Origin: Desulfobulbus sp.
GTDB taxonomy: Bacteria > Desulfobacterota > Desulfobulbia > Desulfobulbales > Desulfobulbaceae
Direction of reading: 5' to 3'
NCBI GenBank assembly: GCA_011051875.1
Contig: DRKI01000077.1
Location: 1 to 52,598 of the forward strand
DNA length: 52,598 nt
Made by a program: the position numbers and the translations under genes. The notes below the pieces were generated by a model. That model did not search any database, was not told the origin of the DNA, and saw nothing but the letters and a program-made list of their open reading frames with translations. This document shows, piece after piece, positions 32,599 through 44,349 of this stretch (its first letter is position 1; each line of letters starts with the position of its first letter).

Positions 32599-32956
32599 AT
32601 CACATTCTCCTAGTCCAATCACCTGGCAAATCCATAGAATACTCAAGTTGTACAAATTCTGATACAAGATCGTACTTCATTCTCACAATGCCACTATTGT
32701 ACAGAAAACCGTCAGGAAAAGGCAAACCGTCACCATCTTTTTTTCCACCCTGCAAACATCGTATAAAATCATCGTGTTGTTTCCGGTAAGGGACGAGGAG
32801 ACAATGTTCTGTTCATTTTTTTTGGTATTTTTCAAAAAAAAAACAAACAGGGCCATTAAGTTCCTCTCACCATCGGCCGATAAAAAGATAACAGGAAAAA
32901 TATCCTGGTTGCGTCGAGGCACGGATGCCCGCGAACCACTGCAGGGAGGCAGGAAC
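32599..32956. other. divergent AT-rich intergenic region
   Basis: This 358-bp spacer separates the receptor gene (-) and the flgM cluster (+). It is much richer in A and T than the surroundings, with a T8 run and an A10 run at 32818-32846 that may bend DNA. TTGTACA occurs twice (near 32650 and 32695). A sigma-28 promoter for the + strand lies at 32857-32883. No clear promoter was found for the receptor. Confidence 0.55.
32857..32883 (+). promoter_or_regulatory. sigma-28 promoter for the flgM cluster
   Basis: TAAG (32857-32860), 15 bases, then GCCGATAA (32876-32883), a perfect -10 for FliA-type sigma. Predicted start near 32890, about 65 bases before the next ATG. It would drive the unknown gene, flgM and flgN. 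Confidence 0.8.
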
Positions 32957-33529
32957 ATGCTAGACAGTATCAGCTCCGGTCATCAGGCTTACGATACCCT
33001 CAACCTCCACCAGAGCTTCAGCCTGGAAATAACGGCCGGCCTGGAGGTGAAAAACGGCGAAGGCGACACCGCCGCGGTCACGGACCGGATCTCGATCCGG
33101 CGGCAGGCCAGCTTCGCCCTCACCTATTCCAGCGCCCTGCTGGTCGAGGTGGACGAAACAGAAGGGTACAGAAAGCTGCAGGACCTGGTCACCAACCTGC
33201 TCAAGGAACAGGGCATCGCCACCACGGTGGACACCGGCGGCGGCGAGATCGATCTGACCGATCTCACTCCGGACGAGGCACAGGAACTTGTTGCCGATGA
33301 CGGGTATTTTGGTGTAGAAAAAACATCGGACAGGATCGTCGAGTTCGCCAAGGCGGTCGCGGGTGGGGATCCGTCCAGGATCGACGCCATCCGGGAAGGA
33401 ATAGAGCAGGGCTTCGAAGAGGCAAGGAAGGCCTTTGGCGGCTGGCTCCCGGACATCTCCCATGAGACCTATGATGCAGTGATGGACAAACTGGACCAGT
33501 GGGTTTCGGAAGCAAGGGAAGCGGCATAG
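32957..33529 (+). CDS. uncharacterised protein in the flgM operon
   Basis: The 190-residue protein is not recognised. ATG 32957 has GGAGG-CAGGAAC upstream and lies just after the sigma-28 promoter. No signal peptide or membrane helix. The N-terminal part (1-65) is beta-prone with alternating polar and hydrophobic residues (S-F-S-L-E-I-T-A-G-L-E-V). The C-terminal part (110-190) is helical with Y-F-G-V-E-K-T-S-D-R-I-V-E-F-A and I-E-Q-G-F-E-E-A-R-K-A-F-G-G-W-L-P. Its place ahead of flgM and flgN suggests a late flagellar role, perhaps regulatory or exported; this is inference. Confidence 0.85.
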   Translation: MLDSISSGHQAYDTLNLHQSFSLEITAGLEVKNGEGDTAAVTDRISIRRQASFALTYSSALLVEVDETEGYRKLQDLVTNLLKEQGIATTVDTGGGEIDLTDLTPDEAQELVADDGYFGVEKTSDRIVEFAKAVAGGDPSRIDAIREGIEQGFEEARKAFGGWLPDISHETYDAVMDKLDQWVSEAREAA

Positions 33530-37185: not shown

Positions 37186-37395
37186 ATGAATACCATCCCC
37201 CCACCTCTGTCCGGCGACCGTACCGACAGCAAGGCACCGACTGAATCCGCCCGGCCGGACGACATGACCACCCTGGCCATCACGGCTTCTGGATACAGGC
37301 AGGCAAAGCTACTTGTTCCCAGGATCTCGCCCGGGCCGAAAACAGTCGGCAAGCGCTTTTCCTACCAGGAATACACGGTTCCTGCCTGGAACTGA
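37186..37395 (+). CDS. small unknown protein upstream of csrA
   Basis: A 69-residue ORF with a good ribosome site (ATGGAGAAACC). It has no membrane helix or recognisable domain; the N-terminus is polar and proline-rich, and the C-terminal half is basic (K-T-V-G-K-R-F-S-Y-Q-E-Y-T-V-P-A-W-N). It sits 63 bases before csrA. It may be a real gene or a leader peptide; function unknown. Confidence 0.5.
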   Translation: MNTIPPPLSGDRTDSKAPTESARPDDMTTLAITASGYRQAKLLVPRISPGPKTVGKRFSYQEYTVPAWN

Positions 37396-37458: not shown

Positions 37459-37701
37459 ATGCTGGTACTGACCAGAAGAGCCGGTGAGGGTATTGTCATC
37501 GGTGATGATATAACAGTCAAGATCATCGAAGTGAAAGGCGGTGGCATCCGGATCGGGATCGATGCCCCCCGTGAGACAAAAATCTACCGCCAGGAAGTGT
37601 ACGATCGGATCAAACAGGAAAACATCGAGGCCACCCAGTGGGATATGGCTGACCTGGATATTCTCAGTGACGATCTCGCAGGCAGGACTGTAAAAAAATG
37701 A
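37459..37701 (+). CDS. csrA: translational regulator CsrA
   Basis: CsrA binds GGA motifs in mRNA leaders and represses flagellin translation in many species. The 80-residue protein has the full signature M-L-V-L-T-R-R-A-G-E-G-I-V-I-G-D and the conserved binding segment I-G-I-D-A-P-R-E-T-K-I-Y-R-Q-E-V-Y. A GGAG site precedes it. Its stop overlaps the fliW start (ATGA). Confidence 0.97.
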   Translation: MLVLTRRAGEGIVIGDDITVKIIEVKGGGIRIGIDAPRETKIYRQEVYDRIKQENIEATQWDMADLDILSDDLAGRTVKK

Positions 37702-38165
37702 AAAAGATAACAACCCGTTTTGGCGAAATTGAATACGATCCGGCCAATACCATCCATTTTCCGGAAGGACTGGTCGGGCTCGAGGACCTGCACGATTTCA
37801 TTGTCATGCCCAACAAGAAAAAAGGGCCCCTTTTCTGGATCCAGTGCGTGGACCACCCGGAATACGCCTTTGTCGTCACCGACCCCACCAACTTCTTCCT
37901 CGACTATGTGCTGGCCCCGGACGAGGAAGAACGGAAAAAACTGGGAATCGGAGCAGAGGACGAGTGTTACATCCTCTGTATCGTGACGGTACCGCCATCC
38001 AAGGAGATCACCCTCAACCTGGCCGCCCCCATCCTTTTTGCGCCCAAGAGCAACCGGGCCCTGCAGGTGATCCTGGAGAATTCCCCCTATGACGTCCGCA
38101 CCCCCCTGCCCCGCCCGGACAGCAGCCAGGAGCCGGCCAACGACAGGAAGAACGCCACAGGCTGA
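37698..38165 (+). CDS. fliW: flagellar assembly factor FliW
   Basis: FliW binds CsrA to relieve repression and is itself bound by free flagellin, closing a feedback loop. The 155-residue protein has the family N-terminus (T-R-F-G-E-I-E-Y-D), then I-H-F-P-E-G-L-V-G-L-E, and ends in N-S-P-Y-D-V-R-T-P-L. It overlaps csrA by four bases. A strong terminator follows. Confidence 0.96.
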   Translation: MKKITTRFGEIEYDPANTIHFPEGLVGLEDLHDFIVMPNKKKGPLFWIQCVDHPEYAFVVTDPTNFFLDYVLAPDEEERKKLGIGAEDECYILCIVTVPPSKEITLNLAAPILFAPKSNRALQVILENSPYDVRTPLPRPDSSQEPANDRKNATG

Positions 38166-38191: not shown

Positions 38192-38240
38192 AACGACAGA
38201 ACCGGCATCCTGGTTGACAGGATGCCGGTTCTGTCGTTTT
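38192..38240. terminator. 21-bp perfect terminator hairpin, likely bidirectional
   Basis: Two perfect 21-base arms (38192-38212 and 38218-38238) around GTTGA are followed by TTTT on the + strand. It lies between the convergent ends of fliW (+) and fliT (-), so it probably stops both. Confidence 0.92.
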
Positions 38241-38273
38241 CCCATCGTGACCGGCTGCCGCTCCCGGTGGGCT

Positions 38274-40953: not shown

Positions 40954-42441
40954 TTACTGGAGCAGGGACAGCGCCATCTGCGGGGCCTGGTTGGCCTGCG
41001 CGAGGATGGAGATGCCGGCCTGCTGCAGGATATTCTGCTTGGTCATGTTGGAGGTCTCCTGGGCGATGTCCGCGTCAAGGATCCGGGAGCGTGCTGCAGA
41101 GATGTTTTCTGAGATATTCTGCAGGTTGGCGATGGTGGACTCGAAGCGGTTCTGGATCGCGCCGAGGTTGCCGCGCTGGGAGTCGATCTTGCCCAGCGCC
41201 TTGTCGATGACATCGATGGCCGACTGCGCACCCGACTGGGTCGAGATATCGATGCCGCTGACATAGTCGGTATCGGAGTTGACAAAGGTATCAGCCCCCA
41301 CATTCAGGATGGAGCCTGCCGAGTTGGCCACGTCGGAACGGACCGAAAAGGACTCGGTGGAGCTGAACTCGACCCGGCCGGCGACGGTGGTGGAATCGGT
41401 ACTACCATCGGTCAGATCCGTCGTATCAGAATCAAGCGTGGTGACGGTCATGGTTTCACCGGATACCGAGTGGGTGAAATCGGCGATATCGATATCCTTG
41501 CCCTCGGACTGGATCAGCTTGACATTGCCATCATCAAGCTCTGCAGAGATGCCGGTGGTACCGGTGACCTTGTTGATGGCATCGACCAGGTTGCTCAGGT
41601 CACCGGTGGTGACCGAGGCGGAGATGGTCGCCGTGGTGCCGCCGGAACCGAGCGTCATCTGCACGGTGCCGTCACTGCTTACCGCGGTGATCGAGGCCTC
41701 GTTATAGGCCGTTGCCTCGACACCTGTGCTCGAGGTCACCGAGTTGATCTTGGTGGCCACCGTATAGGCGGAATCGCCGGCAGCGACGCCTACGGTCGCT
41801 GTTCCCTCGGAACCGGCAACGGTCAGGGTCTGGGCGGCAATGGTGTTGTTGGTTGGCAGGGAGGATGCCGCAGCAGTGGCGGAACCGGTTCCCTGGTTGG
41901 CGGTTGTGTTGGTGGCGGTGGTTGCCGCCCGGCCCAGGTCGCTTGCGGCCATGGAGTCGATGGAGACGCTGATGGTCTCGTTGGCATTGGCGCCGATCTG
42001 GAACTTCTGGGCGGAAAAGGAACCGTCGAGGATCTTCAGACCGTTGAAGGTGGTGGTATTGGCGATACGGTCCATCTCGCTCTGCAGCTGGTTGACCTCG
42101 GCCTGGAGAGCCGAGCGGTCGGCGGCAGAGTTGGAGGCATTGGCAGCCTGGACAGACAGCTCACGCATACGCTGCAGAATGTTGGTGGACTCCTGCATGG
42201 CACCTTCCGCGGTCTGGGCCAGGGAAATACCGTCGTTGGCATTCCGGACGGCCTGGTTGAGGCCCCTGATCTGGGAGGTCATCCGGTCGGAGATGGCCAG
42301 TCCTGCCGCGTCATCCTTGGCAGAGTTGATCCGGAGACCCGATGAGAGCCGCTGCATGGAGCGGGAGAGTGCATTCTGGGTTTTGCCCAGATTGCGCTGA
42401 GCATTGAGAGACGCTACGTTTGTGTTGATTACGAGACCCAT
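40954..42441 (-). CDS. fliC: flagellin, copy 1
   Basis: Filament subunit of 495 residues. The conserved ends ([18 protein letters not shown] and the C-terminal [17 protein letters not shown]) form the filament core and bind FliS. The middle (about 165-400) is threonine-, serine- and glycine-rich with flagellin-IN-like repeats and no cysteine, and is a likely glycosylation surface. AAGGAGG is close to the start and forms part of a likely CsrA target. Paralog of the gene at 42731-44221. Confidence 0.97.
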
Positions 42442-42492
42442 GATATTCCTCCTTGAATATGAAGTGGGTTTTCCTGTGTTGGCATCCTTGCC
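42442..42492 (-). promoter_or_regulatory. candidate CsrA sites in the fliC1 leader
   Basis: On the - strand, GGCAAGGATGCC (42492 to 42481) folds as a 4-bp stem with AGGA in the loop and matches the CsrA core CARGGAUG. A second GGA lies in ACAGGAAAA. A third, AAGGAGGAAT (42454 to 42445), is the Shine-Dalgarno itself. This two-site layout resembles the Bacillus hag leader. Confidence 0.6.
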
Positions 42493-42536: not shown

Positions 42537-42563
42537 GTTTCGGCTGTCACCTCCTCTGCTGTT
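42537..42563 (-). promoter_or_regulatory. candidate sigma-28 promoter of fliC1
   Basis: GCCGAAAC (42544 to 42537) shares GCCGAAA with the fliC2 promoter; 15 bases upstream is AACA, a weak -35. It would give a leader of about 90 bases. GAGGAGGTG also lies in the spacer, similar to GGGGAGGTG at fliC2. Confidence 0.45.
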
Positions 42564-42675
42564 TTTTCCTGATTATTTAATCTTGTCATACGAACCAAGA
42601 ACTGGATTATTTTCCCTTGTAGATTGTATCGTACCCGGGGCCGGGATTCTTTAGGGAAAAATGCATTCTTTCCGC

Positions 42676-42730: not shown

Positions 42731-44221
42731 TTATCCCTGGAGTAGCTGCAGGGCCAGTTGCGGAGTCTGGTTGGCCTGGGTGAGGATAGAGACTCCGGCC
42801 TGCTGAAGGATGCTCGATTTGGTCATCCTCGAAGTCTCCTGGGCGATATCGGCATCGCGGATCCGCGACCGGGCCGCGGTCAGGTTCTCGGCCACGTTCT
42901 GCAGGTTGGCGATGGTTGACTCGAAACGGTTCTGCAGGGCGCCGAGATCGCCGCGCTGGGCATCGATCTTGTCCAGGGCCGCATCGATGATCTTGATAGC
43001 GTCGTTGGCGTTTTCCACCGTGCTGATATCAACCTGGGTCACCTCCTCCATGGGCGGGATCTCGGTGGTGTTGGCCGGCTGGTCGAGAATGGAGCCCGCC
43101 GTGTTGGCGATATCCGAGGACACGGTATAGGATTCGGGCGAGGAGAACTCGATGGAGCCCGAGATCCTCGTGGAATCATTGCCGCCCGAGGCCAGATCGG
43201 TGGTATTGCCGGAGGCGCCGGTGACGGTGATGGTGGCGCCGGAGGTGGTGTGGGTAAAGTCCTCCAGGACGATGTCCTTGCCCTCGGCCTGAATCAAGGT
43301 GAGCGTGCCGCCGCTGACCGTGGCGGTTACCCCGGTTGTACCGCTCTGGGCGTTGATGACTGTGGCCAGCTCGCTCAGGTCGCCGGTGGCCACCGAGGCG
43401 TTGACCGAGGCCGTGTTGCCGCCGCTGCCGATGGTCAGGCTGACCTGGCCCGAGTCGCTCAGCCCGGACAGGGTGGCCTCGGTCCGCGCGGTGGCGGTGA
43501 CACCGGTGAGGGCGGCGGCATTGGTGATGCTGGAGGCGATGGTCCAGGCCGTGTCACCGGCACCGATGGCCACCGTGGCCTCGCCCTTGCTGCCATTGAT
43601 GGTCAGGGTCTGGGCGGCGATGGTATTGATGGACGGGGCAGATGTCGCGGCCGTGGCCGGTGTGCCGGTTCCCTCGTTGGCCGTGGTATTGTTGGCGTCA
43701 AAGGTGTAGCGGCCGAGATCATCGGCAGCCATGCTCTGGATGGAGACCCCGATGGTCTCATTGGCGTTGGGACCGACCTGGAACTGCTGGGAGACAAAGG
43801 TCCCGTCCAGGATCTTGAGGCCGTTGAAGGTGGTGGAGTTGGCAATCCGGTTCATCTCGGTCTTCAACTGGTTGACCTCGGACTGGAGGGCGGCCCGGTC
43901 GGCGGCCGAGTTGGTGGCATTGGCGGCCTGGACAGCGAGTTCGCGCATGCGCTGCAGGATATTGGTGGATTCCTGCATGGCGCCTTCCGCTGTCTGGGCC
44001 AGCGAGATTCCGTCGTTGGCGTTTCTGGCCGCCTGGTTGAGACCGCGGATCTGGGCGGTCATGCGGTCGGAGATGGCGAGCCCGGCCGCGTCGTCCTTGG
44101 CCGAGTTGATGCGAAGGCCCGAAGAGAGCCTTTCCATGGACGTGGAAAGGTCGCGCTGGGTCCGGGCGAGGTTCCGTTGAGCATTCAGCGATGCTACGTT
44201 TGTATTGATCGTCAAAGCCAT
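42731..44221 (-). CDS. fliC: flagellin, copy 2
   Basis: Filament subunit of 496 residues, very similar to copy 1 in the first 165 and last 90 residues and diverged in the middle. It starts [13 protein letters not shown] and ends L-A-L-Q-L-L-Q-G. The central part has flagellin-IN-like repeats ([12 protein letters not shown]) that copy 1 also has. It has its own promoter and terminator, so the two copies can be regulated separately. Confidence 0.97.
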
Positions 44222-44236: not shown

Positions 44237-44322
44237 AAACTATGTTCCGCCTGGTCGTCAATGATCCGACCACTGGCTCACGATACAAACGTAACATCTC
44301 TCAACTGTGTCTCTCGCTTACC

Positions 44323-44349
44323 TTTTCGGCACCTCCCCATCCATGCTTA
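44323..44349 (-). promoter_or_regulatory. sigma-28 promoter of fliC2
   Basis: Read on the - strand: TAAG (44349 to 44346), 15 bases, GCCGAAAA (44330 to 44323). Predicted start near 44316 gives a leader of about 95 bases. Confidence 0.7.

Follow-up and report, generated by a model that had tools for sequence, protein, structure and literature searches.

Comparative evidence for a two-site CsrA element in a Desulfobulbus flagellin leader and a possible pairing between two flagellin mRNAs

In the Gram-negative bacterium Campylobacter jejuni the flagellin gene flaA is transcribed from a sigma-28 promoter, and two ANGGA stem-loops within its leader have been proven by footprinting and mutants (PMC4894983). 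In Bacillus subtilis CsrA blocks ribosome binding on the flagellin mRNA hag, FliW antagonises CsrA and csrA adjoins fliW (PMC4894983, PMC6529632). The available text of a study of Geobacter sulfurreducens reports that binding between CsrA and FliW depends on N55 of CsrA (PMC13407953). We compared these systems with a flagellar locus of Desulfobulbus sp. (GCA_011051875.1, contig DRKI01000077.1) contained in a stretch of 52,598 nucleotides, which is referred to here as the window.

Reading of ORFs and domains within the window identified a late flagellar cluster on the plus strand (DUF5610, flgM, flgN, flgK, flgL, csrA and fliW) and tandem flagellin genes, fliC2 and fliC1, on the minus strand (Table 1). 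The fliC1 product carries Flagellin_N and Flagellin_C domains, and the closest named record, Desulfobulbaceae bacterium S140_14, has a flagellin with 91 % identity. The 80-residue CsrA reads as a protein of the FliW-binding type, with a C-terminal extension and N55, and retains L4 and R44, which from E. coli CsrA we take to be RNA-binding residues. The FliW domain is intact and homologous to FliW in the solved FliW-CsrA complex 5dmb. FliW is found in 170 of the 258 genomes of the order and flagellin likewise in 170; as the two co-occur and are not separable, FliW occurrence was dropped as evidence of FliW-dependence. The inverted repeat and T run 3′ of fliW form a likely terminator. A 69-residue ORF with no Pfam match lies between flgL and csrA (37186-37395, plus strand).

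Table 1 Features of the flagellar locus; coordinates are positions in the window
Feature	Position	Strand	Remarks
DUF5610 gene	32957..33529	+	First of the DUF5610-flgM-flgN-flgK-flgL-csrA-fliW cluster
csrA	37459..37701	+	80 aa; L4, R44, N55, C-terminal extension
fliW	37698..38165	+	155 aa; overlaps csrA stop
Inverted repeat GACAGAACCGGCATCCTG...CAGGATGCCGGTTCTGTC then T run	38195..38242	+	Read directly from sequence
fliC1	40954..42441	-	Flagellin, 495 aa; ATG at 42441
fliC1 codons 7-13 (ACA AAC GTA GCG TCT CTC AA)	42404..42423	-	Complementary to fliC2 leader
Outer helix 3′ arm UGGGU	42436..42440	-	Last two AUG bases and codon 2
CsrA site 2 (BS2), predicted	42443..42460	-	Hairpin AUAUUC-AAGGAG-GAAUAU, SD in hexaloop
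Outer helix 5′ arm ACCCA	42465..42469	-	Partner of the 3′ arm UGGGU
CsrA site 1 (BS1), predicted	42481..42492	-	Stem GGC/GCC, hexaloop AAGGAU; covariation
AGGAGGTGA element, SD-like	42547..42555	-	Conserved AGGAGG in relatives' leaders
Sigma-28-like promoter TAAA-N16-TACGATAC of fliC1	42626..42653	-	Sequence match
fliC2	42731..44221	-	Flagellin, 496 aa
fliC2 codons 6-11 (ATACAAACGTAGCATC)	44190..44205	-	Cis partner of leader arm
fliC2 leader arm GTTGAGAGATGTTACGTTTGT	44285..44305	-	Complementary in cis to fliC2 codons 6-11, in trans to fliC1 codons 7-13
Sigma-28-like promoter TAAG-N15-GCCGAAAA of fliC2	44323..44349	-	Sequence match
Second two-hairpin leader	32857..32956	+	Precedes DUF5610 gene; conserved in relatives
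Sigma-28 TAAG-N15-GCCGATAA of DUF5610 leader	32857-32883	+	Sequence match
GGC-ACGGAU-GCC hairpin, DUF5610 leader	32918-32929	+	CANGGANG hexaloop
CUGC-AGGGAG-GCAG hairpin with SD, DUF5610 leader	32939-32952	+	CANGGANG hexaloop

RNA folding of the fliC1 leader (GUUGUACCGGCAAGGAUGCCAACACAGGAAAACCCACUUCAUAUUCAAGGAGGAAUAUCAUGGGU) predicted two hairpins, GGC-AAGGAU-GCC and AUAUUC-AAGGAG-GAAUAU, both with CANGGANG hexaloops and with their GGAs 35 nt apart. Each presents an ANGGAN hexaloop closed by C-G, the high-affinity CsrA/RsmE type. The initial annotation had described the first as a mini-hairpin with AGGA in the loop; the hairpin stands, but relatives do not preserve its innermost A-U pair, so that the motif is the hexaloop C-ANGGAN-G and not a tetraloop. 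The second GGA that it had placed at the ribosome site is present and itself lies inside a conserved hairpin. The 12-mer GGCAAGGATGCC occurs exactly once in the window (42481-42492, minus strand, upstream of the fliC1 start). The draft genome (3.1 Mb) has nine copies, most of them in genes, where they read Gly-Lys-Asp-Ala; its scarcity was therefore dropped as evidence, and the claim could not stand on sequence alone. Those mostly coding copies are what would be expected of a chance palindrome of a type common in GC-rich coding DNA; we regard that explanation as having a negligible probability, refuted by order-wide conservation of the hairpin at the same place before flagellin genes with compensatory changes. 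The minimum-free-energy z-score of the whole leader was ordinary (about -0.85), not significant, and was dropped as support for the element. A third GGA in the leader (42474-42472, within ACAGGAAAA, 42477-42469) was rejected as a CsrA site, being missing in all three of the nearest fliC1 leaders (G002, G006, G001). Rfam gave no match in the window at the gathering score and no meaningful sub-threshold match in either flagellin leader.

The case for the element is carried by comparison of leaders from 129 flagellin genes, almost all of them of Desulfobulbales, with 62 control leaders from mostly gammaproteobacterial loci, a group that to our knowledge lacks FliW. Hairpins with a GGA loop on a stem of 4 bp or more were present in 81 of the 129 flagellin leaders vs 3.5 in shuffles (maximum 7), a comparison that overstates independence because the leaders share kinship and their counts are not independent events; among the controls the same search returned 2/62 vs 2.0 in shuffles. 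ANGGA hexaloops at both sites were found in 71/129 flagellin leaders and 0/62 controls. Across relatives the closing pair is C-G in every instance (82/82 and 89/89 at the two sites), the BS1 loop reads AAGGAU (48), AAGGAC (19) or AAGGAA (4) and the GGA-GGA spacing is 20-43 nt, mostly 34-35. The outer pairs of BS1 vary together, one of them occurring as GC14/UA8/CG7/AU2, with a covariation score of 0.277 vs 0.111 when shuffled (0/500); the two outer pairs tested had played no part in the selection of hairpins. Codon 2 also covaries with the leader: Gly (GGN) is accompanied by CCC in 7/7 cases and Ala (GCN) by GCC in 9/10 (Fisher 5e-5), which argues that the outer helix pairing the start codon is maintained too. 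A model of the fliC1 element matched flagellin leaders in other families of the Desulfobacterota as well. The position and conservation of the predicted hairpins are far beyond chance.

A sigma-28 match is present in 38 of 68 relatives vs 3.1 expected, and the promoter at 42653-42626 gives a fliC1 leader of ~180 nt. A transcription start downstream of 42481, which the initial annotation named as an observation that would count against its reading, is thus unlikely given this predicted promoter. Between the promoter and the hairpins, about 50-90 nt upstream of the latter in fliC1-type leaders, lies a conserved element, AGGAGG(UGA), whose sequence complements the tail of 16S rRNA. AGGAGG is present in 48 of 70 two-hairpin leaders (shuffled mean 1.7) and in 0/42 fliC2-type leaders. 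We rejected a role as the SD of a leader peptide, the sequences read having no start codon after the element; it is possibly a ribosome standby or an extra CsrA site.

The csrA-fliW gene cluster is itself placed behind a leader of the fliC1 kind, which precedes the DUF5610 gene and whose layout is kept in several genera with changed stems. Among the first 30 examined of 57 genomic GGCANGGANGCC sites, only three came with both a start site and a sigma-28 box: those of fliC1 and the DUF5610 leader, and one on a different contig that belongs to a 146-residue protein. At the last of these (contig C45, L305, about 13202) GCCGATAA, GGCAAGGATGCC, an SD and the ATG of the uncharacterised protein were observed, making it a possible third sigma-28/CsrA gene.

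We conclude that the fliC1 leader is very probably a two-site CsrA operator within a CsrA-FliW-flagellin loop. The architecture shared with C. jejuni flaA, N55 in CsrA and the intact FliW lead us to read fliC1 as CsrA-repressed and FliW-relieved, and from sequence we infer CsrA binding, repression and a FliW switch. Transcription would start at the sigma-28 promoter ~180 nt upstream, and the SD hairpin and outer helix would already mask the fliC1 initiation site without CsrA. One CsrA dimer bound to both GGA hexaloops would then keep the SD hairpin shut. FliW, encoded beside csrA, would bind CsrA and lift repression, and unsecreted flagellin would tie up FliW so that repression resumes and flagellin output tracks export. 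The initial annotation had proposed such a loop from genes about 5 kb away; by coordinates csrA and fliW lie 4.3-5 kb off, and the proposal draws support from the conserved hexaloops, the compensatory changes, csrA-fliW adjacency and the CsrA residues. The loop is less new than it had suggested, since coexistence with FlgM and sigma-28 is not unusual: C. jejuni, also Gram-negative, has a two-hairpin leader of this kind and transcribes flaA from a sigma-28 promoter (PMC4894983).

Masking by the leader itself could be the whole of the control, with the leader acting as a thermometer or slow-start element in which CsrA has no part. Conservation of the SD hairpin and outer helix, which mask SD and AUG, is what such an element would require; we nevertheless hold it to be improbable, as it leaves unexplained the upstream hairpin, which masks nothing, the invariant ANGGA that both hairpins share with the unrelated leader of DUF5610, and the linkage to csrA-fliW. 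A further reading, that CsrA is bound mainly for titration and the abundant fliC1 leader is a sponge freeing targets such as the DUF5610-flgM-csrA-fliW leader, has a precedent in the titration of CsrA by the C. jejuni flaA leader (PMC4894983) and a second possible CsrA target in the window. We rate it as a minority possibility, since one of the sites spans the SD and binding should block translation too; the sponge and repression roles are compatible and not exclusive.

The fliC2 leader does not contain the two-hairpin element. Its arm has two complementary partners, within fliC2 itself and over 21 contiguous nt in fliC1 codons 7-13. Evidence for the cis pairing comes from the arm ACGUUUGU[A/G] and fliC2 codons 6-9, where a leader A accompanies AAU in 37 cases and a leader G accompanies AAC in 5, with no exceptions (Fisher 1e-6); a synonymous-shuffle fold test of the cis structure was weak (mean z -0.46). 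Pairing in trans exceeded that in cis in 35/35 genomes (average 16.3 vs 13.3 pairs in a fixed 20-nt register), with average duplex energies in those genomes of -31.1 vs -21.8 kcal/mol, and the trans duplex was better than that with synonymous fliC1 variants (z -2.4). The fliC1 target is single-stranded in the predicted fold.

Several fliC1 codons are frozen (ACA 33/35, AAC 32/35, GTA 35/35, TCT 34/35, CTC 35/35). Synonymous freezing spans codons 7-12, with variation from codon 13, and the same codons vary in fliC2. The core was intact in 41/42 fliC1 genes from genomes with a detected fliC2-type leader vs 3/15 from genomes without one; two of the three exceptions without a leader, G178 and G181, proved to have it, giving 43/44 vs 1/13. 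Broken cores in genomes where no fliC2 was detected were seen repeatedly within each of the genera g7, g33, g37 and g45, although several of these genomes are incomplete drafts. At codon 10 the second base (C of Ala or T of Met) matches the leader G or A in 31/31 leaders with either base; four further cases disagree, and the division runs largely along family lines. A formal covariation count gave moderate support for the trans pairing because most positions never vary. A third strong match to the fliC2 leader, on contig C15, was rejected as a free-standing RNA, being a flagellin gene cut by the contig end. That end (L214 2440-2597) holds a fliC2-type flagellin start whose arm has GCGTTTGTAT, with a G-U pair kept in cis.

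On balance we favour pairing of the fliC2 leader with fliC1 mRNA as predicted from these patterns. That the leader regulates, or is regulated by, the fliC1 message through an arm GAGAGA-NNN-UACGUUUGU that pairs in trans (fliC1 codons 7-12) or in cis (fliC2 codons 6-9) has, in our estimation, a slightly better than even chance of being correct. Cis pairing would close a domain containing the fliC2 start site. With CsrA keeping ribosomes off it, fliC1 mRNA could invade fliC2 and open it, much as in a natural toehold switch, and this could couple or order the two flagellins. If true, such a link would offer a new means of balancing filament subunits or of setting their order.

Pairing between bacterial mRNAs, in which an untranslated region of one is complementary to another, is a general concept, and our literature search found no flagellin case. 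What differs here is that the partners are flagellin paralogues, and that one has frozen synonymous sites which fit the other's leader. The predicted fliC1-fliC2 pairing is a new lead and points to a link between the two messages that has not been described before.

The predicted CsrA element of fliC1 represents an established mechanism, here in a lineage new to it and with extra parts. The locus resembles G. sulfurreducens in its operon, given as flgJKLMN-csrA-fliW in the available text of a study that concerns biofilm and in which a flagellin leader element was not found (PMC13407953). As in B. subtilis, csrA adjoins fliW, and we propose the same block of ribosome binding on flagellin mRNA and antagonism of CsrA by FliW (PMC4894983, PMC6529632); the phylum is another, however, and the conserved two-hairpin leader belongs to just one of the two flagellin genes, fliC1. 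Common to this locus and C. jejuni flaA are two stem-loops with ANGGA hexaloops, of which the second covers the ribosome site, as well as compensatory changes, a sigma-28 promoter and an encoded FliW (PMC4894983). C. jejuni differs in its shorter leader (45 nt vs ~180 nt for fliC1), its closer GGA spacing (21 vs 35 nt) and a fliW that lies away from csrA (PMC4894983), whereas here the two genes overlap. The fliC1 leader also has an added helix at the start codon and, further upstream, the AGGAGG element. On comparative evidence the CsrA-FliW-flagellin loop would thus extend to the sulphate-reducing Desulfobulbales.
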